Shown in pieces: positions 3,802 through 22,281 of a DNA stretch of 41,566 nucleotides (position 1 is the stretch's first letter; each line of letters begins with the position of its first letter). The notes beneath the pieces are model-generated. The model did not search any database. It was given only the letters and a program-made list of their open reading frames with translations, and had not been told where the DNA came from. This stretch comes from an uncultured Methylococcaceae bacterium (lineage in GTDB: Bacteria > Pseudomonadota > Gammaproteobacteria > Methylococcales > Methylomonadaceae), in assembly GCA_903927955.1 (NCBI GenBank), contig CAIYOW010000024.1, forward strand, positions 1-41,566, given 5' to 3'. The position numbers and the translations under genes were made by a program.

Positions 3802-5037
3802 TTAAATCCAAGGATGACGGGGTGGATTGATGGCGTTCAACACATAATTCCCCACCGCATAATATTTCCAGCGTACCGGATCATGCAGCGTATGGGTGCG
3901 GGCATTGCGCCAGTGCCGGTCCAGATTGAACTCTCCCAGCGTTGAACGGGTGCCAGCCAATTCAAACAACTTACTGGCGGCAAGCAGAGCAGTTTCGGTG
4001 CTGAAAATTTTTGCCTCGGCAACAGCAATCGAAGCCGCGCCTACAGAATCATCATTGGGATGCAACTGGGCGTAATCTATCGCATCCCCAGCACGTGCCA
4101 ACAATGCCTCGGTGGCATGTAACTGGGTCTGGATATGGCCAATATCCTTCAGCGTCAACGGGTCTTCATAGCCAAATTCCAGATCAGTGTCTATCCAAGG
4201 CCGGGTATGGTTGCGAACAAAGTATAGGGTATCCTTAAACGCCGCCCTCGCTATGCCGGTATCGACAGCGGCTTGGATGATTTGGGCGATAGGCCCCATG
4301 GTGGTCGGGTTTTCAAATGCCAGATAGTGGGGCAAGACAAAATGAGCGGGTACAAAGACATTTTCCAAAATGGTTGTGCCACTGGCGGTCGTGCGCTGGC
4401 CAAAACTAGACCAGTCATCAATAATGGCCAAGCCCTCGGCATCCCGTTTAACAAAAGCCACCACGGTGTTATCGTGTTCATCTTTTGCCACTACTGGCAC
4501 CCAGTCTGCCAACAAAGCCCCCGATGAATAGAATTTTTTTCCGGACAGCAAATAACCGTCTTGAGTAGGGGTAAGGCGGGTGTTTACATCGGTGACTTTC
4601 TTGGTGCCTATCTCAGAAAAAGCATTGCCGAACCTTACCCCGCTCAGCACCAGATCAAAGAAATACCGTTTTTGATCCTCGCTACCGTCCAGACGGATGG
4701 CTTCCACCATATAAAGATGATTTTGCGGAATTTGCCCGACATTCGGGTCGGCCTCGGAAATAATGGCAATCACTTCCGCCAAGGTTTTGTTTGACACAAA
4801 CGCGCCACCATACTCTTTTGGCACCGTAATGCCCCATAAACCGCTTTGTGAAAACAAATCCAGTTCTTGACGCGGTAAAATCCGCTCTTTGTCGCGCTGG
4901 GCAGCATTTTTGGCAATTTCCACCGCCAGCTGCTTGGCAACCTCGATAGCCTCTTCATCAGACTTGATGACAGGGACGTTTGCCCCGGAAATGTAATCCC
5001 GACTTTCATTCGCGCCAATCTGTAATTGCGATGACAT
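3802..5037 (-). CDS. sfnB: SfnB-family sulfur acquisition oxidoreductase (acyl-CoA dehydrogenase fold)
   Basis: The 411-residue product has the acyl-CoA dehydrogenase-like flavoprotein fold: an N-terminal helical domain, a central beta domain (NAFSEIGTKK, then DWSSFGQRTTASGTT) and a C-terminal four-helix domain ending with the diagnostic HWRNARTHTLHDPVRWKY. This is the SfnB group, associated with use of sulfones and sulfonates as sulfur sources. Members are thought to be FMNH2-dependent monooxygenases rather than dehydrogenases. The ATG at 5037 has a plausible Shine-Dalgarno sequence (tctaggagc on the coding strand). The gene lies downstream of the porin on the same strand, with 227 bases between them. 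Unlike five other units in this region, I found no correctly spaced sigma-54 promoter before it; it may be read through from the porin or use another promoter. Confidence 0.88.
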   Translation of the reverse strand: MSSQLQIGANESRDYISGANVPVIKSDEEAIEVAKQLAVEIAKNAAQRDKERILPRQELDLFSQSGLWGITVPKEYGGAFVSNKTLAEVIAIISEADPNVGQIPQNHLYMVEAIRLDGSEDQKRYFFDLVLSGVRFGNAFSEIGTKKVTDVNTRLTPTQDGYLLSGKKFYSSGALLADWVPVVAKDEHDNTVVAFVKRDAEGLAIIDDWSSFGQRTTASGTTILENVFVPAHFVLPHYLAFENPTTMGPIAQIIQAAVDTGIARAAFKDTLYFVRNHTRPWIDTDLEFGYEDPLTLKDIGHIQTQLHATEALLARAGDAIDYAQLHPNDDSVGAASIAVAEAKIFSTETALLAASKLFELAGTRSTLGEFNLDRHWRNARTHTLHDPVRWKYYAVGNYVLNAINPPRHPWI

Positions 5038-5195
5038 AAATGCTCCTAGATATATTGATAGTTAAAGGTGTTGGCCTAGCCTGTAAAATACACACGAATA
5101 GTCCAACGCACTGACTGCGCAAAAATACAAACCATTGATAAATTTAGCTTATAATAATTATGGCTTAAGCGGCATTGCTGTATTGACCTCATTAT

Positions 5196-5223
5196 GCTGC
5201 TACCCCGCTGACAGGGCAGCAGC
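5196..5223 (-). terminator. Hairpin after the porin gene (weak terminator or attenuating stem)
   Basis: GCTGCT-a-CCC and GGG-c-AGCAGC form a nine-pair stem with one mismatch and an eight-base loop, 42 bases after the porin stop codon. No T-run follows on the minus strand, so it may only lower read-through into sfnB or protect the porin mRNA 3' end. Confidence 0.4.
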
Positions 5224-5264: not shown

Positions 5265-6746
5265 TTAAAAATAGACTTGCCCTTGCAGCCTGAAGCGATT
5301 GTCTTCCAAGTTATTATTGAGCCAGTTTTCACCGCTGATACGGCTGTAATCAGTCTGCAATTTAAAGTGATGGTCGTAAAAATAATAGTTAAGGCCAACA
5401 GAACCGACTGTTTCATTTTTGTAACTACTGCCGTTTTGGTGGTCAAACGTCACTTGGTTTACCGTACCGGCTAACTCAAAACGCTTAGGCACCAAGTAAT
5501 AACCCGCTTGCCAATACCAGCCGTTGTTGTTGCTGTTTGCCGTGCCAGGCACTAGGCTGTGTGAGTTGTAGTCCTTACGCCAAAAAAATGCCCCCTCGGC
5601 GCTGAGTAAATTGCGGCGATAACCTATATCACCTGTAAAGGTATAGGTGTCCATACCGGCAACGGTATTCTGCAAACCGGAATTGGCATCAACAGGGTTG
5701 TAACCGGCAGCCACGCCTACCGACAATTGTGGTTTATCGACATTGTCCGGTATGGTTTCCTGAACATAGGTGTACGGTTCCAACACATCGTAGACAATTC
5801 GCCCGATACCAGCCAATTTTGTGCCTACATTTTGTTGGGTGACCGAATCTAACGCCCGAACGCTGTTGGCAACGGTAAAGCTGCTGTTCCATTTGCCGGA
5901 TTTCCAATTCAGCTCAATACCGGGTGTACGTTGCAAACTGAAGGCATATTCAGGTTGTTGCAAGTCCATGAACAGATATTTACCTATGTCGGTATAAAAC
6001 TGCCGCGAAAATTGTGGCAATATACGGCCCGCCTTAATGCCTAAATTACCCAGTTGGTATTTGCCCCACCAATCTATCGTCTGAACGGTATTATTATTGT
6101 TCAGTGTGCTGCTTTGATAGAAAAAGAAGTAAGACAGATTGGGATCAAAGGCAGTGCCGGAGAAGAATAACCTGCCCAACGCCAAATCGAAGCCTTGGCT
6201 ATCTTTTCCAGTATATTTATTGCTCGGCAAGTCCAAGGTATAGCGCGCCTGCACTAACCCATTGATAGCCAATGAAAAGCGATTGTCATTGGTCTTTAAA
6301 ACAAAGCCGTTATCGTAAAAGCCGCCCAAACGATGCCCTTTAGGTACTTTGGCGGCATCCGCATCTTCTAAATCCGGCTCATCCTGCACGTTGCGTTTCT
6401 TTGCCGTATCGGTTTCTTGGACAACGGCTGTGGCATTACTATTTTTAATAGAGCCATTAATACCACCCAAGCTATTATCATTTATATCCGGGGTGAGTTT
6501 TGAAGATTCGCGTTGCTCCAATTCCCTCAGGCGCTCATTAGTGGCTTTAATTTGCCGCTCGTATTCCTGCATTTGTTTAAGTAATTTGCGCGTTTCGGCA
6601 TTAGGTTCTTTAGCGTCACCCATAACCGGAGATAATAAACAGCTAGTTATTATTGTGTAAAAAAACGCTTTCTTTAGCATACTATCGCAGTGCAGACGAT
6701 TATTCACAATATAATTGGGTGCATGATGATCTAATAAAATACTCAT
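5265..6746 (-). CDS. OprO/OprP-like outer-membrane porin
   Basis: The 493-residue product has a hydrophobic signal segment (about residues 28-42, cleavage probably after VMGDA), a short coiled coil (residues about 50-80, KLLKQMQEYERQIKATNERL) and then a long beta-barrel with alternating aromatic strands ending in QVYF, the normal outer-membrane C-terminal signal. Strand pattern and the motifs FSLAINGLVQARYTLDL and GIKAGRILPQFSRQF fit the phosphate-selective porin O/P family. A substrate cannot be read from the sequence; its sigma-54 promoter and neighbours suggest uptake of organosulfur anions. ATG 6746 has a strong RBS (aggag, 7 bases upstream) but gives an unusually long n-region; ATG 6680 gives a normal signal peptide but has no good RBS. 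I keep 6746 with reserve. Confidence 0.85.
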   Translation of the reverse strand: MSILLDHHAPNYIVNNRLHCDSMLKKAFFYTIITSCLLSPVMGDAKEPNAETRKLLKQMQEYERQIKATNERLRELEQRESSKLTPDINDNSLGGINGSIKNSNATAVVQETDTAKKRNVQDEPDLEDADAAKVPKGHRLGGFYDNGFVLKTNDNRFSLAINGLVQARYTLDLPSNKYTGKDSQGFDLALGRLFFSGTAFDPNLSYFFFYQSSTLNNNNTVQTIDWWGKYQLGNLGIKAGRILPQFSRQFYTDIGKYLFMDLQQPEYAFSLQRTPGIELNWKSGKWNSSFTVANSVRALDSVTQQNVGTKLAGIGRIVYDVLEPYTYVQETIPDNVDKPQLSVGVAAGYNPVDANSGLQNTVAGMDTYTFTGDIGYRRNLLSAEGAFFWRKDYNSHSLVPGTANSNNNGWYWQAGYYLVPKRFELAGTVNQVTFDHQNGSSYKNETVGSVGLNYYFYDHHFKLQTDYSRISGENWLNNNLEDNRFRLQGQVYF

Positions 6747-6787: not shown

Positions 6788-6803
6788 TGCATTAAATATG
6801 CCA
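6788..6803 (-). promoter_or_regulatory. Sigma-54 (-24/-12) promoter of the porin gene
   Basis: On the minus strand the sequence is TGGCATATTTAATGCA: GG at -24 and GC at -12 with exactly ten bases between. It is 41 bases upstream of ATG 6746. The stretch from 6804 to 7053, up to the end of ribBA, holds no gene that I can see; at 6880-6915 it has several TTGCTGAA/GCTGC words that may be activator sites. Confidence 0.75.
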
Positions 6804-7053
6804 GATATGAATATTTTATTTTAATTTTTAAATCAGTTAGTTATCTATTTTATTTGATTTTGTCAGAAAGGTAATTTAATGCGGCTGCTGAATTGTTGTC
6901 TATTTTGCTGAAACGCTGCCGCTCTATCCGCAGTAAAAGATAAAAATTTACGATGGTCAAATTCACCCAAATCACCACCGCAGCTAATATTATTTAATCC
7001 ATACCGTTTATTTATTATCAACTGACCTGAACAACAAATTCATGAAAACCAAA

Positions 7054-8286
7054 TTAACCCAACACGTTATCGCAACTGACACTACCTAAATTAAGTAAAT
7101 GCCCTAATTTCTCGGATTTAGTACGTAAATAAATGATATTCTCGCTGTTAGGGGTGGACTCCAAAGCAACCCGACCCACTATTTTTAGCCGGTAACCCGC
7201 CAGTTCAGTAAACTTTGCCGGGTTATTGCTCATTAGCCGCAAAGTAGTCACGCCCAAATCACATAAGATTTGGGCACCTATGTCGTAACTTCTGGCATCG
7301 ACCGGCAAGCCCAAATCCAAATTGGCCTGCACCGTGTCCCTGCCTTGGTCTTGCAATTCATAGGCACGCAGCTTATGCGCCAAACCAATGCCGCGCCCTT
7401 CATGACCGCGCAAATAAACCAGCACCCCGCACCCAGCCTGTTCAATTTTGCCCAAAGCCATCTTCAACTGACTGCCGCAATCACAGCGCAAAGAATCCAA
7501 TATATCGCCGGTCAGGCACTCGGAATGCACCCGCACCAGAATATTTTTTTGCCCGGCTATTTTTCCTTTGACCAAAGCCAAATGTTCCGAACCGTCCAGT
7601 ATTGAGCGGTAAACGTATGCAGTGAACACGCCGGCGGCGGTAGGTAACCGGGCTTCAGAGAGCTGCTCCACCAGCTTTTCATTACGTCGCCGGTAGGCGA
7701 TAAGATCGGCGATGTGTATAAATGGCAGCTGGTGTTGCGTGGCAAATTCCCGTAACGTCTCGCCACGCATCATACTACCGTCGTCGTTGACAATCTCGCA
7801 TAGCACACCGGCAGGGGACAACCCCGCCAAGCGCGCCAAATCGCCAGCCGCTTCGGTATGCCCCGGCCTTTCCAGCACGCCATGTTTTTTCGCCCGCAAT
7901 GGAAAAACATGGCCCGGGCGGGCAAAATCCCCCGCTGTAGTATGAGGATTGGCAAGTGCCCTCAGGGTGGCGCTGCGGTCGGCGGCAGAAATGCCCGTGC
8001 TGGTGCCTTTGTTTAAATCCACCGATACTGTAAAAGCCGTGCCATGGGGATCCGTATTGCGGGCTACCATAGGGTCAAGCCCTAGCGCATCGATACGTTC
8101 TCCAGTTAACGACACACAAACCACGCCACTACTGTACCTGACCAAAAAGGCCATTTTTTCCGGCGTAATTTTTTCAGCGGCCATAATGAGATCGCCCTCA
8201 TTTTCCCGTCCGGCATCATCTGCCACGACCACGAAGCCACCATTGCGGATAGCCGTCAGGGCAGTTCCAATACTATCGAATTTCAT
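7054..8286 (-). CDS. ribBA: Bifunctional riboflavin biosynthesis protein RibBA
   Basis: The 410-residue protein fuses 3,4-dihydroxy-2-butanone-4-phosphate synthase (RibB, residues about 1-200; [28 protein letters not shown]) with GTP cyclohydrolase II (RibA, residues about 205-400). The RibA half looks active: it keeps the zinc cysteines in [17 protein letters not shown] and the [16 protein letters not shown] loop. The two activities feed both branches of riboflavin, FMN and FAD synthesis. The gene stands alone between porin and regulator, inside the organosulfur region, and has its own sigma-54 promoter. I infer that it is a dedicated copy raising flavin supply for the FMNH2-dependent monooxygenases encoded around it. 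A main riboflavin operon would be expected elsewhere in the genome. Confidence 0.93.
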
Positions 8287-8298
8287 TGTTTGCAGCCT

Positions 8299-8370
8299 TT
8301 GGTTTGATTAAAACAAATAATTTCCTAAGAGCAGGGTGTGGCAATAGGCCGAAGCTCTCACCCGCCACAG
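8299..8370 (-). promoter_or_regulatory. Leader of ribBA with mutually exclusive hairpins
   Basis: The transcribed leader from the sigma-54 promoter to ATG 8286 (about 93 bases) can fold in more than one way: GTGGC with GCCAC, GGGTG with CACCC, and AGAGC with GCTCT share the same bases. It does not match the FMN riboswitch consensus. A regulatory role is possible but unproven. Confidence 0.25.
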
Positions 8371-8390
8371 CCAGCTTCTTCAGGATATAA

Positions 8391-8406
8391 AGCAAAAACC
8401 AGGCCA
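8391..8406 (-). promoter_or_regulatory. Sigma-54 (-24/-12) promoter of ribBA
   Basis: Minus-strand sequence TGGCCTGGTTTTTGCT, with GG and GC separated by exactly ten bases and a TTTGC -12 element close to consensus. It lies 105 bases upstream of ATG 8286. The rest of the 8407-8596 gap contains the palindrome listed below and no convincing gene. Confidence 0.7.
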
Positions 8407-8564
8407 ATTTACAATTCTTTGATTAATATGATAAAAATACGGGTATGCAATAAAATGATGCTGGCTTTGCAGCACTCTGTAAGATAGGTGCTGTGGTTGC
8501 AGCGTTGGTGCGGTTTTTGCGGGGCTTAAAAATGCCAGTGGGGGCGTGAAGTGCTTTTGTAGCA

Positions 8565-8579
8565 GCAGGCGATGCCTGC
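8565..8579. repeat. Short perfect palindrome downstream of the regulator gene
   Basis: GCAGGC-GAT-GCCTGC lies 18 bases after the stop codon of the sigma-54 activator. It may act as a weak terminator or be a REP-like element; no T-run follows it. Confidence 0.4.
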
Positions 8580-8596
8580 GCCACTCCAGCCGCAAT

Positions 8597-9781
8597 TTAT
8601 CTCAGTGCACTAATCATGCCCAATTTAATCAGTCTTGCCCGTACAATATTGCGGCTTACGCCTAATAATTTGGCTGTTTGGGCGGCATTGTTATGGCAAT
8701 AGTTATAAGCCGCTTTGATGATGGACTCTTCCAGATGACCATACAAATCTTCCCGTCCGTCTTCAAAAAAGTGATACAGTGCCTCATTCAAATGATCATC
8801 GATACTCGCACCATTACCAGCACTATAATCCTCCCGTGGCCTTTGTAATTGGATGCTGGATAACTGCAAATCTTCGCTACGCACCAGATTATTTTTGCAG
8901 ATCAGCAGGGCATGATGAATCACATTCTCTAGCTCGCGGATATTGCCCGGCCAAGAATGCTTCAATAATTTCTTTTTGGCCTCCTCATCCAGCTTAATTT
9001 CGCTGTAGCCTAACCGGCGCCGGTATTCAGAAATAAAAAAATTCGCCAAAGGCAGAATATCGCCCGGGCGATTCCTTAAATTGGGTAGTTCAATATGGGC
9101 CACCCGTAAGCGATAAAACAAATCCTCGCGGAAATGCCCCGCCAACACCGCCTCTTCCAGCCTAACGTTAGTGGCTGCCACCAGCCTGACATCAATAGGA
9201 ATCGGCTTTCTGGACCCTAGCCTGACCACTTCACGCTCCTGCAAAACGCGCAGCAGTTTCACCTGGATGCTTAACGGCAAATCACCAATTTCATCCAGAA
9301 ACAGCGTGCCAGTATTGGCTGCTTCAAACCAACCGACTTTGGTCGAAAAAGCCCCTGTGAACGCCCCTTTTTCATGCCCGAACAATTCGCTTTCCACCAG
9401 GCTTTCTGAAAATGCCCCGCAGTTGACCGCGACAAAAGGCTTGTCTTTGCGGTGGCTCAGCTCATGCACATAGCGGGCGATAAGCTCCTTGCCAGTGCCG
9501 GTCTCACCAATCACCAGCACATTGGCATCACTGGGGGCAATCAATTTGATCCGGTTCAGCAGTGCCAACGATACAGGGTCTTCAAATACTTGGGCAGTAC
9601 CTCTGATGGAAGTCGTCAGCTCATGGGAATTGGGCAGTGACAGCAAATTTGCCTGCTTCTCTATCCGTGCCGGTTCAGTTTTTTGCTCAGGCTTCTGTTC
9701 AGGCTGATAGTCAAAAAAATGCTTAGCCGAATTATTTATGAATAAAACGTCGGGTTTGGGTAAGACTTGTTCAGTGCCCAT
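8597..9781 (-). CDS. sfnR: SfnR-type sigma-54-dependent transcriptional activator
   Basis: The 394-residue protein is a bacterial enhancer-binding protein. It has a short N-terminal part of about 60 residues with no recognisable sensory domain (QPEQKPEQKTEP low-complexity stretch), an AAA+ core with Walker A GETGTGKE (92-99), the sigma-54 contact loop GAFTGA (139-144), Walker B TLFLDEIGDLP (about 159-169), arginine-finger region FREDLFYRLRV, and a C-terminal Fis-type helix-turn-helix (NAAQTAKLLGVSRNIVRARL). Lack of a receiver or ligand domain is typical of SfnR, the activator of sulfone-use genes under sulfate limitation. Its start (strong RBS aggag) lies 46 bases inside the end of the sfnC gene, so both are one operon from a sigma-54 promoter; SfnR probably activates its own transcription and the four other matching promoters here. 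Confidence 0.9.
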   Translation of the reverse strand: MGTEQVLPKPDVLFINNSAKHFFDYQPEQKPEQKTEPARIEKQANLLSLPNSHELTTSIRGTAQVFEDPVSLALLNRIKLIAPSDANVLVIGETGTGKELIARYVHELSHRKDKPFVAVNCGAFSESLVESELFGHEKGAFTGAFSTKVGWFEAANTGTLFLDEIGDLPLSIQVKLLRVLQEREVVRLGSRKPIPIDVRLVAATNVRLEEAVLAGHFREDLFYRLRVAHIELPNLRNRPGDILPLANFFISEYRRRLGYSEIKLDEEAKKKLLKHSWPGNIRELENVIHHALLICKNNLVRSEDLQLSSIQLQRPREDYSAGNGASIDDHLNEALYHFFEDGREDLYGHLEESIIKAAYNYCHNNAAQTAKLLGVSRNIVRARLIKLGMISALR

Positions 9782-10944
9782 TCTCCTAGCTCCTTAATTT
9801 TGTAATCCAAAGGGTCATGTAAGGTATGTGTTCTTAAATTCCGCCAATGCCGGTCCAGCCGTAAACCACCATGAGTTGACCTGGAACCCATCACAGCGAA
9901 CATATTGTTGGTAATGTCCAAACCGGTCTTGGTGGCCTGCACTTTGGCAATACTGATTGCAATAGCCACATCCCCCCGCTCAGCCTCGGTAAGTCGGGAC
10001 TGTTTTTCCCAAGCGCTGTCCAGTTTGACGGCGGCAACATCACACAGCACACGGGTGCTTTCTAAGCCAACCAAAAAATTGCCGTAGTGGTTAAGGACAT
10101 ACGGGTCATGCTGGGACGAAGCCAGATTAGCGGCATGCCAAGGCCGGGATTCATGCAAGGTATAATGTCGCGCATCCTGAAAAGCCCCCTCGGCGATGCC
10201 TAAATAAATATTGGTCAATACCAATTGCGCCACCAAAGGTCGCAAACAAGAAAAGGGGGTGCTTAAAGGGCCGGGTTCCAATAACACTTCATTGGTTTCC
10301 ACTCGGACTTTTTCGAAATTGACACTGCCGCTATCAGTCTGGCGCTGGCCTATATTGTCCCAGTCTTGGCATACCGTTATACCCGTCCTACCAGTGGGTA
10401 TGGCGGCAATCAGCAATTGCCCGTCCGAATTAGACTTGGCCGACACAATCAGCATCTCAGAATCGGTAGCACCCGAACAAAAGCTTTTTTGGCCTGAAAA
10501 TTCGTACCAACCGGGGTAAGACTTAGCTAGGCATCTGTCGTCCAGCGGATTTAAGGCATTACCCCAAAACCAATTGAGTTGGGCGGTCAGCCTGAACCAG
10601 CGTTCCCATTGCTCAGGCTTGGAAAACAGCCGCACGGTGGCCAGCATTAACTGCTGAAACCCGAAAACATGCGCAATTGAGCTATCGGCTTTGGCGATTT
10701 CCCTAATGCATTGCATAGTCAGCAGCCAATCTGCGCCCAGACCACCATATTCCACAGGAATGATTAAGCCCAATAAGCCGCTGCTACGGATTTCATCCCG
10801 TTCCAGCTTAGGCGTGCCACCCAAAAAGTCCCTTTCTGCCGCCGTCAGCGCAAATTGTCCCGCCAGATTTTTAGCAATATCCAGCGGGCTTTCAACAGCA
10901 TTGTCTGTAAAGGTGTTATCAAGGCTAAAAATATTACTGTTCAC
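9736..10944 (-). CDS. sfnC: SfnC/DszC-like flavin-dependent monooxygenase (copy 1)
   Basis: The 402-residue product has the acyl-CoA dehydrogenase fold of the SfnC/DszC group: N-terminal helices, central beta domain (FCSGATDSEMLIVSA, DWDNIGQRQTDSGSV) and a C-terminal helical domain with LDRHWRNLRTHTLHDP. Such proteins use FMNH2 from a separate reductase to oxygenate sulfur compounds, or serve with SfnG and SfnB in sulfone use. The gene is transcribed away from ssuD, from a sigma-54 promoter 34 bases upstream of ATG 10944, and overlaps the regulator gene by 46 bases. It is clearly paralogous to the protein at 12575-13777, with long identical runs in the beta domain. Confidence 0.88.
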   Translation of the reverse strand: MNSNIFSLDNTFTDNAVESPLDIAKNLAGQFALTAAERDFLGGTPKLERDEIRSSGLLGLIIPVEYGGLGADWLLTMQCIREIAKADSSIAHVFGFQQLMLATVRLFSKPEQWERWFRLTAQLNWFWGNALNPLDDRCLAKSYPGWYEFSGQKSFCSGATDSEMLIVSAKSNSDGQLLIAAIPTGRTGITVCQDWDNIGQRQTDSGSVNFEKVRVETNEVLLEPGPLSTPFSCLRPLVAQLVLTNIYLGIAEGAFQDARHYTLHESRPWHAANLASSQHDPYVLNHYGNFLVGLESTRVLCDVAAVKLDSAWEKQSRLTEAERGDVAIAISIAKVQATKTGLDITNNMFAVMGSRSTHGGLRLDRHWRNLRTHTLHDPLDYKIKELGEWALNKSYPNPTFYS

Positions 10945-10977
10945 CGCAATTTCCAGTTGTGGGCATGTTTTATTAAT

Positions 10978-10993
10978 AGCATATAGTGTGCCA
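10978..10993 (-). promoter_or_regulatory. Sigma-54 (-24/-12) promoter of sfnC-sfnR
   Basis: Minus-strand sequence TGGCACACTATATGCT, with an exact consensus -24 half (TGGCAC) and GC at the right spacing. It lies 34 bases before ATG 10944. Confidence 0.78.
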
Positions 10994-11022
10994 TTTTTTT
11001 AAATCTGATTGAAATGGCATGC

Positions 11023-11322
11023 TTTGGTGACCTAAAACAAGCTCTGTATGGGTGTTCCATTGCCTGCCATAGGCCGGCCCATCGAATGGGGCTACCGCCA
11101 GACAAGCCAACGCAAATGCCAGATCGCATGATTAACGGTCAGCACAACAACACCTGCTGATTATGCAGCAACACTTTGGCGACAGCGAAAGCAAAAGCCG
11201 CTGATCATCCGATAGACAGATTTTATTAACGTCAACACCCTCCATAGTCCTATCAAAATGCCGCTATAGCAGCAGGTTCAGCGCAATGCCGCTGCAAAGC
11301 CAGCAGCGTTTGGTGACAAAAC
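11023..11322. promoter_or_regulatory. Divergent control region with repeated TTTGGTGAC words and a CCTGCTGATTATGCAGCA palindrome
   Basis: Between the two back-to-back sigma-54 promoters there is no gene, but there are repeats: TTTGGTGAC followed by AAAAC at 11023-11038 and 11309-11322, a near copy TTTGGCGAC at 11175-11183, the TGCTG/CAGCA inverted repeat inside 11153-11170, and GCTGC/GCAGC arms at 11291-11307. These are candidate binding sites for the SfnR-type activator. A sequence resembling the 11153-11170 element (14 of 18 bases) occurs at 14984-15001 before the msuE promoter. Confidence 0.35.
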
Positions 11323-11355
11323 CGTTGGAACAGCCATTTTCCTATAGCCAAATGC

Positions 11356-11371
11356 TGGCATGTTCTTTGCA
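11356..11371 (+). promoter_or_regulatory. Sigma-54 (-24/-12) promoter of the ssuD operon
   Basis: TGGCATGTTCTTTGCA: GG and GC separated by ten bases, with the strong TTTGCA -12 element. It lies 50 bases before ATG 11421. Confidence 0.8.
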
Positions 11372-11420
11372 ATCAAAGAAATAAACTGTAACTGTAATTG
11401 TTTTTCTCATAGGTATTAAT

Positions 11421-12572
11421 ATGGAAATATTTTGGTTTCTGCCCACGCATGGGGATAACCGCTATTTGGGCACCGATGTCGGTGTCAGGCCGGTGACCCA
11501 TTCCTATCTTAAACAAATCGCACAGGCGGCTGATAACTTGGGCTTTAAAGGTGTTTTAGTGCCTTCAGGACGCGCCTGCGAAGACCCGTGGGTTACTGCG
11601 GCGTCACTGATTAACCAGACTAAACAACTAAAGTTTCTGGTGGCGTTGCGCCCAGGATTCACTTCACCCACCGTTTCCGCCCGCATGGCCTCCACACTAG
11701 ACCGGATTTCCGGTGGCAGGCTATTGATTAATGTTGTCGCCGGTGGTGATCCTGCCGAACAACAGGCCGATGGCAGTTTTTTGCAACACGACCAACGCTA
11801 TGCCGAAGCCGGAGAATTTTTAACCGTCTGGAAAGCCGTACTAGAAGGCGAGACAGTGGATTTTGATGGCGAGTTCATTAAGGTAAAAGCAGCCAACCTA
11901 CCATCGGGCAGCTTCCAGAAACCTTATCCGCCGTTGTTCATCGGTGGTTCTTCCGATGCCGCCATAACGCTAAGCGCACAACATATCGATGTGTATTTAA
12001 GCTGGGGTGAAACACCCTCCGCAGTGGCGGAAAAAATAAGTCGGGTACGCGCCGAAGCAACCAAACTGGGCCGCAGTGTAAAATTTGGCATCCGTTTGCA
12101 CGTCATTGTCAGAGAAACCAGTGCTGAAGCCTGGGCCGCTGCTGATGGGCTAATCTCACATGTCACCGACCAGACCATAGCCGCCGCCCAAGCCGCAATC
12201 GCCGGTTTTGAATCGGTGGGCCAGCAAAAGATGACCGAATTGCATGGCGGCAAGCGCGATAATCTGGAGGTTGCACCCAACTTATGGGCTGGTATCGGGC
12301 TGGTGAGAGGGGGCGCGGGTACGGCTTTGGTTGGCAATCCGCAAGAAGTGGCCGACAGAATCCTAGAATATGGCAATTTAGGCATTGATTACTTTATCTT
12401 TTCCGGTTATCCGCATCTGGAAGAAGCCTATCGGGTTGCCGAGCTACTGTTTCCATTGTTGCCGATAGAGCTACCACAGGTTTCAGAAGTCGGTATACAA
12501 ACCAATCTGACCGGGCCGTTTGGTGCGGGCAAAACAGTACAGCCGCAGCCAGAGGCTGCCATAAGGATTTGA
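11421..12572 (+). CDS. ssuD: FMNH2-dependent alkanesulfonate monooxygenase SsuD
   Basis: The 383-residue protein belongs to the bacterial luciferase-like (LLM) flavin monooxygenases and to the SsuD branch: [12 protein letters not shown] at the N-terminus, [18 protein letters not shown], the phosphate/flavin-binding [11 protein letters not shown], and the C-terminal [21 protein letters not shown]. SsuD cleaves the C-S bond of alkanesulfonates with O2 and FMNH2, giving sulfite and an aldehyde. It does not bind FMN tightly and needs a reductase; the MsuE/SsuE-type gene at 15137 can supply this. Length is normal for the family. It is the first gene of a sigma-54-driven operon and is followed after 2 bases by the second SfnC paralogue. 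No ssuABC transporter is present in the window. Confidence 0.93.
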
Positions 12573-12574
12573 TC

Positions 12575-13777
12575 ATGACATTAGTAGGCGAAAACGGAAC
12601 GACCAACCCGGCATTAACCGCTGAATTGCTCAAGCAAGTCGAACAGTTAACGGCCTATTTTTACGACACTGCCGCAGAACGTGACCTTAAGGGCGGCACA
12701 CCGCTGGAACAAAGACAAGCCATCCGTAGCACCGAGTTGCTAAAACTTTTGATTCCCAAAAACTTAGGTGGTCTAGGGGTTAGTTGGGCAGGCATTTATC
12801 AGATTATCCGCAGCTTTGCCCGTGCCGATAGCTCCTTAGCCCATGTATTTGGCTTTCAATTTTTAATGTTGGCTTCAGTGCGCTTATATGGCACAGCTGA
12901 ACAATGGCAAGCGCTATTTAAAGAAACCGCCCAACAAAACCTATGGTGGGGCAATGCCCTTAATCCACTGGACACCCGGACAACTGCCACAAGCACAGGC
13001 CAGCATAGGGTTTTCAACGGCTTTAAAAGCTTTTGCTCAGGAGCCACTGACTCTGATCGCCTGATAGTGTCAGCGATAGCTACCGAAAACCAACAATTTA
13101 TCGTTGCCGCCGTGCCAACCCAGCGTACCGGCATCCATATCAATGATGATTGGGACAATATGGGGCAACGCCAAACCGACAGCGGCAGCGTCGAATTCCG
13201 CAATCTTCAGGTCGAAGAAAGCGAATTGCTCATTAACCCGGGCCCCCTAAGCTCGCCGTTTTCCAGCCTTAGGTCGCTAGTCGCGCAACTGATTTTCACC
13301 AATATTTATCTGGGCATCACCGAGGGTGCATTGCAGGAAGCGGTCAAATACACGCAAAGCAATTCCCGCCTATGGTCAGGCTCATTGGCTAAAAATATAG
13401 CGGAAGACCCCTTCACCCTTTTGCACTATGGCGAATTCTGGTCGAGTATTGATGCCGCCAGGGCATTAGCTGATAGAGCGGCGGCACTATTGGACAGTGC
13501 TTGGCAAAAAGAATTGCGGTTGACCGAAGCTGAACGCGCCGAAGTGGCCCTAGCAGTATTTTCCGCCAAGGTTAATAGCACTAAAGCCGGTCTGGATGTC
13601 ACCTCGCGGATATTCGAGGTATCGGGTGCGCGGGCCACAACGGCAAAATTACGTATGGACCGCTTCTGGAGAAATTTGCGCGTTTATACCCTGCACGATC
13701 CGGTCGATTATAAGTTAAAAGACTTGGGTGATTGGGCTTTGAATGGCAATTATCCGACTCCCAGCTTTTACAGCTAA
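12575..13777 (+). CDS. SfnC/DszC-like flavin-dependent monooxygenase (copy 2)
   Basis: Starting at ATG 12575 (RBS aagga, 7 bases upstream; a TTG at 12569 would overlap ssuD but is less likely) this gives a 400-residue protein. It shares the SfnC/DszC fold and signature motifs with copy 1 (DWDNMGQRQTDSGSVEF, LVAQLIFTNIYLGITEGA, MDRFWRNLRVYTLHDP). In the last motif His of HWRN is Phe (FWRN), a difference at a position conserved in SfnB and copy 1, so substrate or mechanism may differ. It sits between ssuD and the amidohydrolase gene in one operon. The exact substrate is unknown; dependence on FMNH2 is inferred from the family. Confidence 0.87.
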   Translation: MTLVGENGTTNPALTAELLKQVEQLTAYFYDTAAERDLKGGTPLEQRQAIRSTELLKLLIPKNLGGLGVSWAGIYQIIRSFARADSSLAHVFGFQFLMLASVRLYGTAEQWQALFKETAQQNLWWGNALNPLDTRTTATSTGQHRVFNGFKSFCSGATDSDRLIVSAIATENQQFIVAAVPTQRTGIHINDDWDNMGQRQTDSGSVEFRNLQVEESELLINPGPLSSPFSSLRSLVAQLIFTNIYLGITEGALQEAVKYTQSNSRLWSGSLAKNIAEDPFTLLHYGEFWSSIDAARALADRAAALLDSAWQKELRLTEAERAEVALAVFSAKVNSTKAGLDVTSRIFEVSGARATTAKLRMDRFWRNLRVYTLHDPVDYKLKDLGDWALNGNYPTPSFYS

Positions 13778-13813
13778 TCCATGAAATAGATAAAAAAGAA
13801 ATAGAGAAAAAAC

Positions 13814-14665
13814 ATGCCAAAAATAATTGATATGAGAAACCGCCCCGCCTTCCTGCACGACTTTTTCGGAGCCAATCCAGGCACCGCAGGTTATGCCACC
13901 GCTAAATGGCTAAACCAACGGGTCGGTTCAAAAGATACCGAACACTTTACCCGTTCTTATACGCTGGGCGGGTATCTGGCTGAAATCGAACGGGCAGGCA
14001 TTGATAAAGCCGTGGTGGTTGGCAGAGAGACCCCCAGCCTCACCATCGATAACGATACCATTGCCGATTTGGTTGGCAAAAGTGCCAAATTCACCGGTAT
14101 TGGCTCCGTAGACATCCAAGCCAGCGGCGAGCCAACGGCATTGGCAGAAATTGAACGGGCTATCCAGCAACTCGGCTTCAAAGCCATCAATATCGAACCG
14201 GGATTTGGAGAGCCGGCCTTACAGGCTGATGATCCAGTATTTTTCCCCGTCTATGAAGCCTGTATCCATTTTGATGTGCCAGTCTGTTTAATGAGTGGGC
14301 CCACCACGCCAGATTTTGACTATGCCCATCCCAATGCGGTGGCGAGAGTGGCCAGAAAATATCCATCCTTAAATATTATTTGTTTTCATGGCTATTACCC
14401 GTTTGTCAATGAAATCATTGGGGCGGCATTCCGCTATGACAATATTTATCTAGTGCCGGACATGTATCTTTTCCAACCCGGCTCGCAACTCTATGTAGAA
14501 GCCGCCAACAGCTTTCTAGGCGAGCAATTCCTGTTCGGTTCATCTTATCCCTTTCGTGACATGAAGCAGACCGTCGATGATTTTGCCGCACTGGGTTTCC
14601 ATGAAGCGCTATTGGATCAGTTATTTTATAAAACCGCCGCGCGGCTGTTGAAGATACCCGCCTAA
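13814..14665 (+). CDS. Amidohydrolase-family (Amidohydro_2) protein with altered metal site
   Basis: The 283-residue protein has the TIM-barrel pattern of Amidohydro_2 (ACMS-decarboxylase-like) proteins: PKIIDMRNRPAF at the first strand, a middle VDIQASGEPTALAEIE, the strand IICFHGYYPFVNEI with a conserved His, and the late strand FLFGSSYPFRDM. Most members have HxH after the first strand and Asp in a GTDyP motif as metal ligands. Here these are absent: the first strand reads DMRNRP and the late motif is GSSYP. It could belong to a non-metal or differently ligated subgroup that travels with organosulfur genes. It is third in the ssuD operon, 36 bases after SfnC copy 2. No reaction can be assigned. 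Confidence 0.8.
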   Translation: MPKIIDMRNRPAFLHDFFGANPGTAGYATAKWLNQRVGSKDTEHFTRSYTLGGYLAEIERAGIDKAVVVGRETPSLTIDNDTIADLVGKSAKFTGIGSVDIQASGEPTALAEIERAIQQLGFKAINIEPGFGEPALQADDPVFFPVYEACIHFDVPVCLMSGPTTPDFDYAHPNAVARVARKYPSLNIICFHGYYPFVNEIIGAAFRYDNIYLVPDMYLFQPGSQLYVEAANSFLGEQFLFGSSYPFRDMKQTVDDFAALGFHEALLDQLFYKTAARLLKIPA

Positions 14666-14697
14666 ATAAGCAAAAGCCATTACACCACCCAAACACA

Positions 14698-14717
14698 GGC
14701 TTCGACTACGCCCAGCC
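14698..14717. repeat. REP-like palindrome, first copy
   Basis: GGCTTCGACTACGCCCAGCC has GGCT/AGCC ends around a TTCGACTACGC core related to the next element. The pair lies just after the end of the ssuD operon and may shape its mRNA 3' end. Apart from this pair and the regulatory sites below, the 14666-15136 gap holds no gene. Confidence 0.4.
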
Positions 14718-14755
14718 AACGTGCCTCTATTAAGTTCTAAAAAGCATTACCCTAC

Positions 14756-14781
14756 GTTCCCTGAGCGAAGTCGAAGGGAAC
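14756..14781. repeat. REP-like palindrome, second copy
   Basis: GTTCCC and GGGAAC flank a core reading gcgaagtcgaa, giving a 26-base imperfect palindrome of the widespread CCCTTCGAC-TTCGCTCAGGG type. It is a dispersed repeat candidate and possibly a factor-independent mRNA end. Confidence 0.55.
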
Positions 14782-15053
14782 ACCCAGCCTTGCCCACCGC
14801 AATCGCTTAAACAAGCCACATAAATTACTGGCTGAGTAACCTCAGTTATTAATAACAAGCTCAATTGATTACCCTCAAATCATTACAATAATTTTTAAAT
14901 AAACCTTGGCATTTTATCGGTCGCCTATTTTACCGCTAAATATCATTATCAGAAATGCTGCCAGTGCAGCGATGCATCAGCAACCTGCCAATTATTCAAC
15001 ATCATAAAATAACAGTATATATATAACCAATTGAAATATAAATTAAAATAAAT

Positions 15054-15069
15054 TGGCACAATAACTGCA
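15054..15069 (+). promoter_or_regulatory. Sigma-54 (-24/-12) promoter of the msuE-sfnG-ABC transporter unit
   Basis: TGGCACAATAACTGCA, with exact consensus TGGCAC and ten bases between GG and GC. It lies 67 bases before ATG 15137. A putative activator site (14984-15001) is 52 bases upstream. Confidence 0.8.
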
Positions 15070-15734: not shown

Positions 15735-16823
15735 ATGAGTTCAGAAAAAATAAAATTCGCCTATTGGGTGCCTAATGTCAGCGGCGGGCTGATTGTCAGT
15801 AATATCGAGCAACGCACCAGCTATGACTTTGACTATAACCGCAAGTTAGCGCAAATTGCCGAGCAGAGCGGTTTTGAATACGCGCTCAGCCAAATCCGCT
15901 TCACTGCCGGTTATGGCGCGGAATATCAGCATGAATCGGTGTCATTTTCCCATGCCTTGCTAGCGGCCACTACTAAGCTAAGAGTGATTGCCGCTATCTT
16001 GCCAGGGCCATGGGATCCAGTAGTGGTTGCCAAGCAATTAACCACCATTGACATTTTAACGGGCGGGCGCATTGCCGTGAATGTGGTTTCCGGTTGGTTC
16101 AAGGGCGAATTTCAAGCCATCGGACAGCCTTGGTTGGAGCATGACGAGCGTTATCGCCGGTCTGAAGAGTTTATAGACGTGCTGAAAGGTATTTGGACCA
16201 CTGATAATTTTAGCTATAGCGGCGATTTTTACCGTTTCCATAACTTCACCTTAAAACCCAAGCCATTGCAACAACCGCATCCTGAAGTATTTCAGGGCGG
16301 CAGTTCGCGCGCAGCTAGGGATATGGCATCCAGAGTATCCAATTGGTATTTCACTAACGGCAACACCGTGGACGGCATTAAAGCGCAAATTGACGACATC
16401 AAAAGCAAAGCCGCCGTGCATAACCATAAAGTCAAAATTGGCGTCAATGCCTTCATTATAGCCCGCGACACCGAAGCAGAAGCCAAGGCCGTGTTGGCGG
16501 AAATTATCGAAAAAGCGAACCCTGAGGCGGTCAATGCTTTCGGTCACGAGGTAAAACAGGCGGGAGCTGCCAGTCCGGAAGGTGAGGGCAATTGGGCAAA
16601 ATCCACGTTTGAAGATTTGGTGCAATACAACGATGGCTTCAAAACCAATCTTATCGGCACACCACAACAGATTGCCGAGCGCATTGTGGCACTAAAGGCA
16701 ATTGGCGTTGATTTGATATTGTCCGGTTTTCTGCATTTCCAAGAAGAAGTGGCCTATTTCGGTGAAAAAGTTCTGCCGTTGGTGCGCGAATTGGAAGCAC
16801 AGCAAACCGCATTACCGGCCTGA
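15735..16823 (+). CDS. sfnG: FMNH2-dependent dimethylsulfone monooxygenase SfnG
   Basis: The 362-residue LLM flavin monooxygenase matches SfnG: KFAYWVPNVSGGLIVSNIEQ at the N-terminus, AAILPGPWDPVVVAKQ, the flavin phosphate region AVNVVSGWFKGEFQAIG, and the C-terminal LILSGFLHFQEEVAYFGEKVLPLV. SfnG oxidises dimethyl sulfone to methanesulfinate using FMNH2; methanesulfinate is then converted to methanesulfonate and sulfite. Length and motifs are normal. It follows the FMN reductase by 55 bases and precedes the acyl-CoA-synthetase-like gene by 27 bases, so it links the sulfone enzymes to the ABC transporter genes in one unit. The methanesulfonate monooxygenase role could be met by the SsuD at 11421, but that is inference. 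Confidence 0.93.
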   Translation: MSSEKIKFAYWVPNVSGGLIVSNIEQRTSYDFDYNRKLAQIAEQSGFEYALSQIRFTAGYGAEYQHESVSFSHALLAATTKLRVIAAILPGPWDPVVVAKQLTTIDILTGGRIAVNVVSGWFKGEFQAIGQPWLEHDERYRRSEEFIDVLKGIWTTDNFSYSGDFYRFHNFTLKPKPLQQPHPEVFQGGSSRAARDMASRVSNWYFTNGNTVDGIKAQIDDIKSKAAVHNHKVKIGVNAFIIARDTEAEAKAVLAEIIEKANPEAVNAFGHEVKQAGAASPEGEGNWAKSTFEDLVQYNDGFKTNLIGTPQQIAERIVALKAIGVDLILSGFLHFQEEVAYFGEKVLPLVRELEAQQTALPA

Positions 16824-16850: not shown

Positions 16851-18008
16851 ATGAGCGCAGATACCTTACCGGAATGGTTAAATTTTCAGGCCAGCCACCG
16901 TCCGACCCAGATTGCCATCCGGCATAAACGGTTGGGTGTTTGGCAGGAAAAAACCTGGCAGATGATACAGCATGAAACCCTACAACTGGTCTCGGCCCTG
17001 CAGGCTCGTGGTTTTGCCAGAGGTGACACGTTGTACCTGTTTTCCAATCCAAGGCCAGAAGCGTTACTGTTGTCACTGGCAGCGCATTGGTTGGGAGGCG
17101 TATCTGCACCATTGGACAGCGACAGTCATGATGCTGACTTTCTGGTTTTGTTGCAGCAGTTGCAACCGGCATTTGTGTTTGCAGAAGGGCAGCACCAAGT
17201 TGATTTTCTGCAACAACAAGGACTAGGGCAAACCCTGATCATCTATGCCGATGCCCGTGGGCTAGCGGGTTATCAGCAAGGCATTTTGCAGCCCTATGCC
17301 GGATTCATCAACCCCAACAACAACCATTTTTATCAGCCACCCGTTAGTGGAGCGGCTAACGATGCCTTTGTGTTTTTCCGTCTCAATCCGCAACAACGGA
17401 TTGAAAGAAAGAAATTGAGCCACAAAAAATTGTTGACCCAAGGACGCTTGCTTATCGAATTGGAAGCCTTGACCGAACAAGAGGAAGCACTGGCGGCCCG
17501 CGCTTTTGCCGCTAGCGGACATCTGAAATATTTGCTGGCCCCTTGGTTGCAAGCAGGTTTCAAACTCAATTTTCCTGAAAACATCAACACCCGCGACAGT
17601 GACCGGCGCGAATTGGGGCCGACCTTGGTGGCTGGCACTAGCTTGACTTACCAACGCTTGGAGTCCTTGGTGAAATCTCGCCTGCCTTTGGCAGGAACCT
17701 GGCGCCGGGCCTTATTGGACTGGTCGTTAGCCACCTCGGCAAAATCCTCGCCGCTACGGAGAGCGTTGGCCTATAGCCTAATGATAAGGCCATTACAAGA
17801 TGTCATCGGCTTAAGCCGTACCCGTGTGCCGCTGCTGGTCGGCGAGGCTTTGCCTGAGCCATCCGCACAATTCTTTCTGTCTATAGGTATCAACATCAGA
17901 AATTGGCCGGATGCCCCCGCTTGGGAAACAGAGGGCATTAACGCGCCCGCCGGGCATAACGGCCAAAGTTTTAACCCAAACCTTTCAGTTACGCAGGGAA
18001 TCAGCTAA
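16851..18008 (+). CDS. Degenerate acyl-CoA synthetase-like protein (probable pseudoenzyme)
   Basis: The 385-residue product resembles the N-terminal part of AMP-forming acyl-CoA synthetases of the long-chain type: LPEWLNFQASHRPTQIAIR, GVWQEKTWQMI and ARGDTLYLFSNPRPEALLLSLA align with their start. The catalytic parts are gone. Where the P-loop YTSGTTGxPKG should stand (about residues 170-191) it reads FFRLNPQQRIERKKLSH; where YGxTE should follow LLVGEALPE it reads IRNWPDAP; and the C-terminal domain of some 200 residues is missing. The frame is nevertheless intact, and its stop codon shares a base with the start of the ABC ATPase gene (TAATG). Acyl-CoA synthetase genes often accompany this type of ABC transporter. 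I infer either a retained non-catalytic role with the transporter or an early stage of gene decay. Confidence 0.75.
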   Translation: MSADTLPEWLNFQASHRPTQIAIRHKRLGVWQEKTWQMIQHETLQLVSALQARGFARGDTLYLFSNPRPEALLLSLAAHWLGGVSAPLDSDSHDADFLVLLQQLQPAFVFAEGQHQVDFLQQQGLGQTLIIYADARGLAGYQQGILQPYAGFINPNNNHFYQPPVSGAANDAFVFFRLNPQQRIERKKLSHKKLLTQGRLLIELEALTEQEEALAARAFAASGHLKYLLAPWLQAGFKLNFPENINTRDSDRRELGPTLVAGTSLTYQRLESLVKSRLPLAGTWRRALLDWSLATSAKSSPLRRALAYSLMIRPLQDVIGLSRTRVPLLVGEALPEPSAQFFLSIGINIRNWPDAPAWETEGINAPAGHNGQSFNPNLSVTQGIS

Positions 18009-18796
18009 TGAACACAACGCAGCCATTGCCCCCCCCTTTGTTGCAGCTGGAACACATCTCATTGTCTTTCAAAGCCGTCAAAGCCATCACTAATATCAGC
18101 TTTGCCGTGCAGCCCGGCGAAATTTGCGCATTGATTGGCCCTAATGGTGCGGGTAAAAGTTCATTACTCAATGTTATCAACGGTGTGTACCGACCGGATG
18201 AAGGGGCTATCAGCTATAACGGCGAAACACTGCACATCATGCAACCCCAGCACGCCGCCGAACGGGGTATTGCCCGCACCTTCCAAAACATTGCCTTGTT
18301 CAAGGGCATGACCGTGTTGGATAACGTGCTGACCGGCCGCAACCTGCATGTGCACAGTAGCTGGCTGGAGCAAGTGTTCAATCTGGGTCGGGCACCACAG
18401 GAAGCCGTGCGGCAAAGAAAAAAAGCAGAAGAAATTATTGATTTTCTGGATATTCAACCGTGGCGCAACAGCGTGGTCGGCAATTTGCCATACGGCTTGC
18501 AAAAACGTGTGGAACTGGGCCGTGCATTGGCGGCTGAACCCAAGCTGTTGCTGCTTGATGAACCAATGGCAGGCATGAACGCCGAGGAAAAACAAGAAAT
18601 GAGCCGCTTTATCCTCGCGACGCAACGCGAGTTTACCACCACCATTGTGTTGATCGAGCATGATATTGGTGTGGTGATGACGCTATCCAATCATGTCGTC
18701 GTGCTGGATTACGGCAAAAAAATTGGTGATGGCAAGCCAGAAGAGGTGCGCCAAAACCCGCAAGTCATTGCCGCTTATTTGGGCACCAAACATTAA
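18008..18796 (+). CDS. ABC transporter ATP-binding protein, branched-chain amino acid type (LivG-like)
   Basis: The 262-residue ATPase has Walker A GPNGAGKSS, Q-loop RTFQNIALF, a signature of the form PYGLQKRVELGRAL, Walker B LLLLDEPMAGMN and the H-loop VLIEHDIGVV. The length and the TFQN Q-loop place it with LivG of the HAAT (hydrophobic amino acid uptake) transporters. It energises import together with the two permeases and the second ATPase encoded downstream. Its start overlaps the preceding gene by one base. The ligand is not shown by the sequence; membership in the sfnG unit under a sigma-54 promoter suggests an organosulfur compound rather than leucine. Confidence 0.92.
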   Translation: MNTTQPLPPPLLQLEHISLSFKAVKAITNISFAVQPGEICALIGPNGAGKSSLLNVINGVYRPDEGAISYNGETLHIMQPQHAAERGIARTFQNIALFKGMTVLDNVLTGRNLHVHSSWLEQVFNLGRAPQEAVRQRKKAEEIIDFLDIQPWRNSVVGNLPYGLQKRVELGRALAAEPKLLLLDEPMAGMNAEEKQEMSRFILATQREFTTTIVLIEHDIGVVMTLSNHVVVLDYGKKIGDGKPEEVRQNPQVIAAYLGTKH

Positions 18797-18810
18797 CCGG
18801 AGCAACCACC

Positions 18811-19692
18811 ATGAGTTTTTTCTTTGAAGTTTTAGTCGGTGGATTACTGGCCGGTGTCATGTACTCCTTGGTCGCCATTGGCTTCGTACTGATCTACAAA
18901 GCGTCTGGCGTCTTTAATTTTGCCCAAGGCTCCATGGTGCTGTTTTCCGCACTCACCTTTGTCAGTTTGTTAGAACGTGGCTACCCATTCTGGTTGGCAT
19001 TTTTGTTGTCGCTGCTGATTATGCTGGTGTTAGCCTGGGCCATAGAACGCTGGGTATTGCGTAAGCTGGTCAACCGCTCGCCCATCACTCTGTTTATGGC
19101 AACGCTGGGGCTGAGCTACATCATTGAAGGATTGGCACAATCGCTCTGGGGAGCCCAAGTGCACGGCCTTGATTTGGGCATCAATGATGAACCTTTTGAA
19201 GTGTTTGGCTTGCTGCTGTCGCAATTCGACCTGTTTGCCTCTGCAGTGGCGGGTACTTTAGTCATTATCCTGTCGATATTTTTTAACAAAACCCGCACTG
19301 GCATAGCCCTTAGGGCTGTAGCAGACGACCCATTGGCAGCGTTAGCCGTAGGCATCAATTTACAACGGCTCTGGCTCATTGTCTGGGCGGTGGCCGGTTT
19401 TGTCGGCTTAGTGGCCGGCTTGCTATGGGGTGCCCGTTTGGGTGTGCAATTTTCGCTGTCGCTGGTGGTGCTAAAAGCCTTACCGGTTTTAATTATCGGC
19501 GGATTCACCTCCATTACGGGCTGCATTGTCGGTGGTTTGATTATCGGGGCATCGGAAAAACTCGCAGAAATATTCATAGGGCCTTACCTGGGTGGCGGCA
19601 TTGAAAATTGGTTTCCTTACGTCTTGGCTATGCTGTTCCTGCTGGTCAGACCGGCTGGTTTATTCGGCGAACGTCAAATAGAACGTGTTTAA
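18811..19692 (+). CDS. ABC transporter permease, LivH-like
   Basis: This 293-residue integral membrane protein shows about eight hydrophobic segments and the LivH signature: GLLAGVMYSLVAIGFVLIYK and ASGVFNFAQGSMV near the N-terminus, ATLGLSYIIEG, and VLKALPVLIIGGFTSITGC near the C-terminus. It forms one half of the translocation channel with the LivM-like protein. A good RBS (ggagca) precedes ATG 18811, 14 bases after the ATPase gene. The gene order ATPase, H, M, binding protein, second ATPase is that of the transporter type commonly accompanied by an acyl-CoA synthetase gene. Confidence 0.92.
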   Translation: MSFFFEVLVGGLLAGVMYSLVAIGFVLIYKASGVFNFAQGSMVLFSALTFVSLLERGYPFWLAFLLSLLIMLVLAWAIERWVLRKLVNRSPITLFMATLGLSYIIEGLAQSLWGAQVHGLDLGINDEPFEVFGLLLSQFDLFASAVAGTLVIILSIFFNKTRTGIALRAVADDPLAALAVGINLQRLWLIVWAVAGFVGLVAGLLWGARLGVQFSLSLVVLKALPVLIIGGFTSITGCIVGGLIIGASEKLAEIFIGPYLGGGIENWFPYVLAMLFLLVRPAGLFGERQIERV

Positions 19693-19703
19693 AGGAGAAC
19701 GTC

Positions 19704-20771: not shown

Positions 20772-20842
20772 AGCTATTAAAAAGCAAGTTTTTTGTTGTA
20801 GAAGTTGTTAACTGATGTTTATTAATCTAAGAGGTATTAACT

Positions 20843-22180: not shown

Positions 22181-22281
22181 CCCTCTTAACCTCACTGCAC
22201 AGGTGCGGGGCGGATACCCTGTGCCTGTGCAGCATCATCCAGCAGCGTATCAAGGGAGCGCAAAAGCCCAAGGAGTTCGAC

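Follow-up and report, generated by a model that had tools for sequence, protein, structure and literature searches.

We analysed a 41,566-nt stretch of DNA (the window; contig CAIYOW010000024.1, assembly GCA_903927955.1) from an uncultured Methylococcaceae bacterium, whose own genome (G000) comprises 2.94 Mb. The window carries a gene cluster around sfnG (dimethylsulfone monooxygenase), and we propose, with a probability of roughly 0.8, that this locus is a sigma-54 regulon for organosulfur scavenging activated by its own SfnR-type protein. The proposal draws on what can be read directly, namely sequence, position, conservation, spacing and covariation. Low sulfate would be the signal. SfnR would bind TGCYG-N6-CRGCA repeats in this genome, which at two promoters are paired about 31 bp apart, ~51 and ~82 bp upstream of the -24 box, and would drive the predicted units msuE-sfnG-transporter, ssuD-msuC-amidohydrolase and ribBA, together with its own operon msuC-sfnR in a positive feedback loop. 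The sfnB promoter follows this layout except that its -24 box is damaged, and a porin gene would probably join the set through a weaker site. A dedicated RibBA may raise the supply of flavin mononucleotide (FMN) while monooxygenases that consume its reduced form, FMNH2, are being made. An initial annotation had already proposed a single regulon from five promoter boxes; the boxes, enhancers, preferred spacing and helix covariation support it well, but the novelty claimed for the HAAT transporter does not stand and the activator of the porin gene is less sure.

Sigma-54 boxes and enhancer repeats

The five boxes of the pattern TGGC-N8-TGCW named in the initial annotation were all found in place and in the right orientation, with ten bases between GG and GC in each. 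As it had claimed, they precede start codons, at 33, 49, 67 and 104 bp, and at 41 or 107 bp for the porin gene depending on the start chosen. The pattern alone is weak, with 14 matches in the window (shuffles average 6.5, largest 12) and 624 in the 2.94 Mb genome, where all genome-wide counts are pattern scans. Because the pattern is so common, the evidence for the boxes rests on position and conservation.

Position was judged against 535 unrelated genes with no match to cluster proteins and at least 100 bp of intergenic DNA; their starts were called mechanically, and some lie near sfn clusters. A same-strand box was found within 130 bp in 23 of them (4.3%) and within 200 bp in 30. By comparison, 5/6 unit heads of the cluster have one within 130 bp, for which the chance is about 1e-6 (a post hoc figure). 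A sigma-54 matrix built from relatives’ boxes, with L001 left out, ranked the five boxes 1, 2, 4, 6 and 9 on both strands of the window, although these ranks are partly built in because the training boxes were chosen with the same pattern. The genome has one copy of rpoN.

Conservation was followed in two samples. The named relatives (L loci) are the best 80 of more than 580 sfnG loci and do not amount to a census. The order-wide sample comprises 301 genomes (G), of which 22, our own included, have SfnG above the cut-off; the surroundings of sfnG were compared in the other 21, with G083 and G210 represented by short contigs. Three sets of contigs appear under two labels (G158 = L001, G128 = L012, G105 = L069). 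The nearest named relative, L001, is an uncultured Methylococcaceae bin with 97% identical SfnG. It keeps all five boxes, although N8 has changed in four (the ssuD spacer is unchanged) and the surrounding intergenic DNA has diverged. In the 80 named loci, strict boxes were counted within 200 bp upstream on the same strand, omitting genes with less than 150 bp upstream and including many genes inside operons. They precede sfnG in 46/80, msuE in 26/33, sfnB in 5/19, msuC in 4/18, ribBA in 2/7, ssuD/msuD in 2/16 and sfnR in 1/18. Boxes on the opposite strand were seen for sfnG in 2/80 and for msuE in 4/33.

A second element, which the initial annotation did not remark on, is an inverted repeat, TGYYG-N6-CRRCA, upstream of the boxes, most often by ~82-86 bp and sometimes also by ~51. 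For 85 boxed regions of the named loci, we looked for enriched inverted repeats in the 220 bp preceding each box without presetting a pattern. Shorter regions were omitted, and seven boxed genes, three of them livG and the others livM, AMP-ligase, amidohydrolase and sfnR, were dropped as likely intra-operonic. Among 5-base half-sites, TGTTG-N6-CAACA came first, in 41/85 regions against 0/85 controls; TGCTG-N6-CAGCA occurred in 16/85 against 0/85. A site within one mismatch of TGYTG-N6-CARCA is present in 73 of 80 boxed regions (L001 left out) and in 0/80 coding controls. By gene, these are sfnG 41/46, msuE 22/24, sfnB 5/5, msuC 3/3, ribBA 1/1 and ssuD 1/1. The gap to the box is 82-86 bp in 48 of the 118 sites. 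In a stricter control, the 300 bp upstream of the 535 unrelated genes, a site was found in 41 and a site together with a box in 4. The accompanying enhancer repeat makes it likely that the boxes are genuine sigma-54 promoters belonging to an SfnR regulon.

In the window, enhancers within one mismatch lie upstream of four of the five boxed units, that of the porin gene being degenerate, and the three exact TGCYG-N6-CRGCA sites are all in the cluster’s intergenic regions. We scanned the genome for the core GCYG-N6-CRGC followed by a box at 40-101 bp, a range that does not span the porin or msuC gaps, and obtained 14 rows with 11 distinct boxes. Three are the ribBA, ssuD and msuE boxes, all heading genes. 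Seven of the other eight fall inside reading frames, and the last, on contig 136, is ~445 bp from the next start (counted to the next frame of at least 120 codons). A box with enhancer on contig 9 was ruled out as a further promoter, as it lies inside rplA.

Much of this layout, boxes and enhancers included, is repeated in the window-type relatives G158, G080, G153 and G108. Other genomes, among them G003, G028, G037 and G049, have a head box with paired TGCCG-N6-CGGCA-like enhancers at ~52 and ~83 bp, and pairs spaced near 51-53 and 82-86 bp from the box are seen repeatedly among relatives. The same geometry points to a sixth promoter, that of sfnB, which the initial annotation did not notice: its spacing fits, but the -24 element has been damaged. 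In G158, G080 and G180, sfnB is preceded by a box whose enhancer lies at gap 83. Judged from its sequence, the window’s sfnB promoter may be weak or dead, or the changed base may be an assembly error.

The features of the cluster are as follows (window coordinates; gaps in bp from enhancer to box).

3802..5037, minus: sfnB, SfnB family oxidoreductase (TIGR04022, 632 bits, cut-off 431)
5107..5122, minus: damaged sigma-54 box of sfnB, TTGCGCAGTCAGTGCG, aligning with TGGCGCAGTAAATGCA in a near relative
5206..5221, minus: SfnR-type enhancer of sfnB, TGCTGCCCTGTCAGCG, one mismatch, gap 83 to the damaged box
5265..6746 (alternative start 6680), minus: outer-membrane porin-like protein; remote homologues match Porin_O_P
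6788..6803, minus: sigma-54 box of porin; TGGC-N8-TGC in 6/6 orthologues
6917..6932, minus: degenerate enhancer of porin, TGCGGATAGAGCGGCA, gap 113
7054..8286, minus: ribBA, sfn-type paralogue (TIGR00506 and TIGR00505 above cut-off; separate tree group)
8391..8406, minus: sigma-54 box of ribBA; pattern match, kept in L001
8459..8474, minus: enhancer of ribBA, gap 52
8489..8504, minus: enhancer of ribBA, gap 82, one mismatch
8552..8567, minus: possible third enhancer of ribBA, gap 145, one mismatch
8597..9781, minus: sfnR, enhancer-binding protein with GAFTGA and C-terminal helix-turn-helix (HTH)
9736..10944, minus: msuC/sfnC-type flavin monooxygenase, overlapping the sfnR start; SfnB and DszC families below cut-off
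10978..10993, minus: sigma-54 box of msuC-sfnR; pattern match, kept in L001
11155..11170, unstranded: enhancer between msuC-sfnR and ssuD, gap 161 to msuC-sfnR and 185 to ssuD
11259..11274, unstranded: enhancer of ssuD, gap 81; 265 bp from the msuC box
11290..11305, plus: enhancer of ssuD, gap 50, one mismatch
11356..11371, plus: sigma-54 box of ssuD; pattern match, kept in L001
11421..12572, plus: ssuD/msuD alkanesulfonate monooxygenase (TIGR03565, 575 bits, cut-off 518)
12575..13777, plus: second MsuC/DszC-like monooxygenase; families below cut-off
13814..14665, plus: Amidohydro_2 family protein; family match
14956..14971, plus: enhancer of msuE, gap 82, one mismatch
15054..15069, plus: sigma-54 box of the msuE-sfnG operon; pattern match, kept in L001
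15137..15679, plus: msuE, FMN reductase (TIGR03566, 246 bits, cut-off 212.5)
15735..16823, plus: sfnG, dimethylsulfone monooxygenase (TIGR04021, 621 bits, cut-off 383)
16851..23025, plus: AMP-binding protein and HAAT transporter (livG, livH, livM, binding protein, livF); family matches

SfnR and the comparison with Pseudomonas

The SfnR-type activator that the initial annotation had placed in the locus is present, and its GAFTGA motif is seen in the translation. The protein has a Sigma54_activat domain and is 60-65% identical to SfnR of 13 Pseudomonas loci; orthology was judged by identity and by position beside msuC/msuEDC in those loci. No Pfam HTH match was found in the window’s SfnR, and the HTH was assigned from the alignment. 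The adjoining msuC/sfnC-type protein has 62-66% identity to the sfnR-adjacent gene of Pseudomonas loci L023, L031, L036, L051, L054 and L066.

The recognition helix of SfnR was compared with the two variable bases of the half-site. With an SRH helix (14 genomes), CC accounts for 73 and CT for 28 of the 110 half-sites. With SRN followed by V, I or L (10 genomes or loci), CT is found in 66 of 90. With SRNxT (13 Pseudomonas loci), TT is the commonest, in 33 of 102, but the class is noisy. The half-site thus tends to track the helix (TGTTG, TGCTG, TGCCG), which points to SfnR as the binder, with exceptions.

The unit msuC-sfnR is preceded by a box and enhancer in the window, G158, G080, G108, G153, L047 and L065. 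None of the 13 sfnR units in Pseudomonas loci shows the pair, and in one of them, L039, the box stands by itself; because only matched genes were considered as unit heads, a head gene lacking a match may have escaped notice. From these upstream regions, SfnR appears to activate itself here, a difference in wiring from Pseudomonas.

The literature gives the gene sets of the Pseudomonas SfnR/sigma-54 regulon as sfnFG, sfnA and msuEDC-sfnR, and an excerpt of PMC12581299 reports that sulfur starvation strongly induces sfnG and the msu genes in P. aeruginosa. Our cluster shares with that regulon orthologous enzymes and regulator, boxes upstream of sfnG or msuE, and enhancers at the same gap. It differs in its half-site, TGCTG and not TGTTG, matching the helix change, in the box and enhancer ahead of the sfnR unit, and in the addition of RibBA and the porin. 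Among the literature matches listed, no title or abstract describes either RibBA or a porin as a member of an SfnR regulon. Other Methylococcales sfn clusters, such as sfnG-msuC-ribBA-sfnR in Methylobacter sp. BlB1 (L012), have the same enzymes, the same RibBA group and paired enhancers at ~52 and ~83 bp. However, they have more genes per same-strand run, whereas the window has five units, and their half-site is TGCCG with an SRH helix.

We lean slightly toward a broader reading, in which the methanotroph SfnR regulon has been rewired: SfnR would activate itself, a dedicated RibBA would supply FMN, and SfnR and its enhancer would have co-evolved in three versions (SRNxT with TGTTG, SRNIVR with TGCTG, SRHxxR with TGCCG). 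If true, the three versions would amount to a recognition code found in nature within a single family of enhancer-binding proteins. The analysis makes of the promoter-like boxes a regulon that can be tested, for which it proposes an enhancer, a favoured geometry and a rule of protein-DNA recognition, and the cluster suggests that some methane-oxidising bacteria are equipped to scavenge sulfur from dimethylsulfone and sulfonates.

RibBA and the other putative members

The initial annotation’s inclusion of RibBA is supported, as the protein is a distinct paralogue, usually lies in the sfn stretch, and has a box and enhancers in relatives. Both the RibB and RibA domains score above curated cut-offs. 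The window’s ribBA is a second copy, ~44% identical to the one beside riboflavin synthase; the latter lies between riboflavin synthase and nifE (G000:C50, L085:61-3392). In a tree of 40 rows (five shorter matches dropped, housekeeping copies of two genomes not included), the sfn-type RibBA proteins form one group apart from the housekeeping copies with support 100/100. The gene lies within the sfn stretch in 17 of the 22 SfnG genomes (16/21 compared plus our own), the match in G180 being partial with an internal stop. Its own box and enhancers were found in G158 and G080, the latter with the box ~300 bp upstream and enhancers at 82 and 52. In G108, ribBA is unlinked: ~66 kb separate it from the closest sfn-cluster gene, and it follows a gene of acyl-CoA-dehydrogenase fold in a unit that carries TGGCCTGATAACTGCA with enhancers at gaps 80 and 50. 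This unit is L204:3289-5995, and its SfnR-type promoter heads the first gene. That gene might encode a further flavin monooxygenase, though its best family match is acyl-CoA dehydrogenase, below cut-off.

Excerpts of PMC8234197 name reduced FMN as the cosubstrate of SfnG, MsuC and MsuD, so co-induced flavin synthesis is a sensible putative reason for RibBA. The arrangement suggests that cells tie riboflavin/FMN synthesis to the expression of reduced-flavin monooxygenases. The idea that sfn-type RibBA escapes an FMN riboswitch of the other copy is unsupported: neither the window, searched at the gathering threshold, nor the 6 kb that include the other ribBA yielded such a riboswitch.

The HAAT transporter had also been put forward as a new member. 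Downstream of sfnG, 19 of the 80 named loci (10 from Pseudomonas) carry an AMP-ligase and HAAT set; Azotobacter, Zoogloea and Methylophilus are also among them, as are beta-proteobacteria. L047 and L065 have the set at another place in the locus. The transporter is therefore a common companion and no novelty. Predicted ABC transporters also lie between sfnA and sfnB of P. putida, according to an excerpt of PMC8234197. The Amidohydro_2 gene beside ssuD recurs in sfn clusters; G028, G032 and G094 have it divergently oriented to msuE, behind a box and enhancers of its own. Its product is likely a regulon member, as predicted from these arrangements.

The porin gene and alternative readings

For the porin, the box is conserved in all six orthologues; the initial annotation’s claim of membership stands to that extent, and the activator is less sure because the enhancer is degenerate. 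Any porin match was found in 29 of the 301 genomes, with close orthologues (64-91%) in five besides our own and the other 23 at 24-34%. All five have sfnG above cut-off, 0.3-12.5 kb away, and a porin lies near sfnG in 5/21 relatives. Upstream of all six orthologues (window included) is TGGC-N8-TGC, which in three ends TGCG or TGCC. The enhancer is a conserved degenerate block at roughly 105-118 bp (in G080 by alignment only). The identity of the protein rests on remote homologues: it has no direct match in Pfam, and a PDB sequence search returned nothing relevant. Both remote homologues scanned match Porin_O_P, one being L095 (E 7.6e-11, 26% identity), which matches PF07396 at 4.8e-7. A structure model from two sequences had a predicted local distance difference test (pLDDT) score of 30 and was unusable.

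These data bear on the most serious alternative, that the boxes are real sigma-54 promoters but the porin gene, and perhaps others, answers to another enhancer-binding protein, giving two overlapping regulons. There are many boxes in the genome, and the porin box is conserved 6/6 yet has a different variant of the upstream block. However, in G029 the porin box has TGCCG-N6-CGGCA at gap 115, with a near match at 85, of the class of that genome’s own SfnR, and the porin gene is first in a same-strand sfn run (porin-sfnG-msuC-ribBA-ssuD-sfnR) that ends in sfnR. The window’s block, at gap 113, sits at 82+31. We consider two regulons unlikely.

It is less probable still that control lies mainly with CysB or sigma-70 promoters, with the sigma-54 boxes contributing little in natural settings. 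P. putida SfnR is reportedly CysB-regulated, going by the title of a 2003 paper by Endoh, but the conserved boxes and enhancers argue that they matter. That the boxes are chance matches, picked for nearness to starts, is very improbable: the genome has its 624 matches and nine of the window’s 14 lie outside the chosen five, yet the boxes are conserved in L001 with four of five spacers changed, recur upstream of orthologues, and have enhancers at preferred gaps.

Several observations weigh against a single SfnR regulon. Strict boxes are far from universal before orthologues, though some of those genes sit within operons. They are absent from sfnB in G153 and msuC-sfnR in G180, and the unlinked ribBA of G061 has no box plus enhancer. 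The window’s sfnB box reads TTGC for TGGC, one G of the GG being lost, ahead of an enhancer at gap 83. The enhancer repeat was first spotted by eye in the window (as TGCTG-N6-CAGCA in several intergenic regions), 7 of the 80 boxed regions have none, and no site within one mismatch of TGYTG-N6-CARCA was found upstream of the porin gene in the six orthologues. Exact TGCYG-N6-CRGCA occurs at 72 places in the genome. One-mismatch matches are not rare, with 17 in the window against a shuffle mean of 7.5, and single ones elsewhere therefore mean little. Clade confounds the helix covariation, which is also noisy in Pseudomonas; few independent changes lie behind it, as related species dominate each helix class. 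G058 (SRNVLR) breaks the rule with TGTTG-like sites, G210 (a short contig) and L002 show no enhancer site despite having SfnR, and G090 has one weak site.

Immediately beyond the downstream end of the sfn cluster, on the opposite strand, lie cysH (adenylylsulfate/phosphoadenylylsulfate reductase) and glutamate-cysteine ligase genes (window 23421-25761, minus). Genes for sulfate assimilation and glutathione synthesis thus adjoin the organosulfur scavenging cluster. A transfer-messenger RNA gene lies farther along the window (34442-34819, plus; Rfam RF00023, 213 bits).

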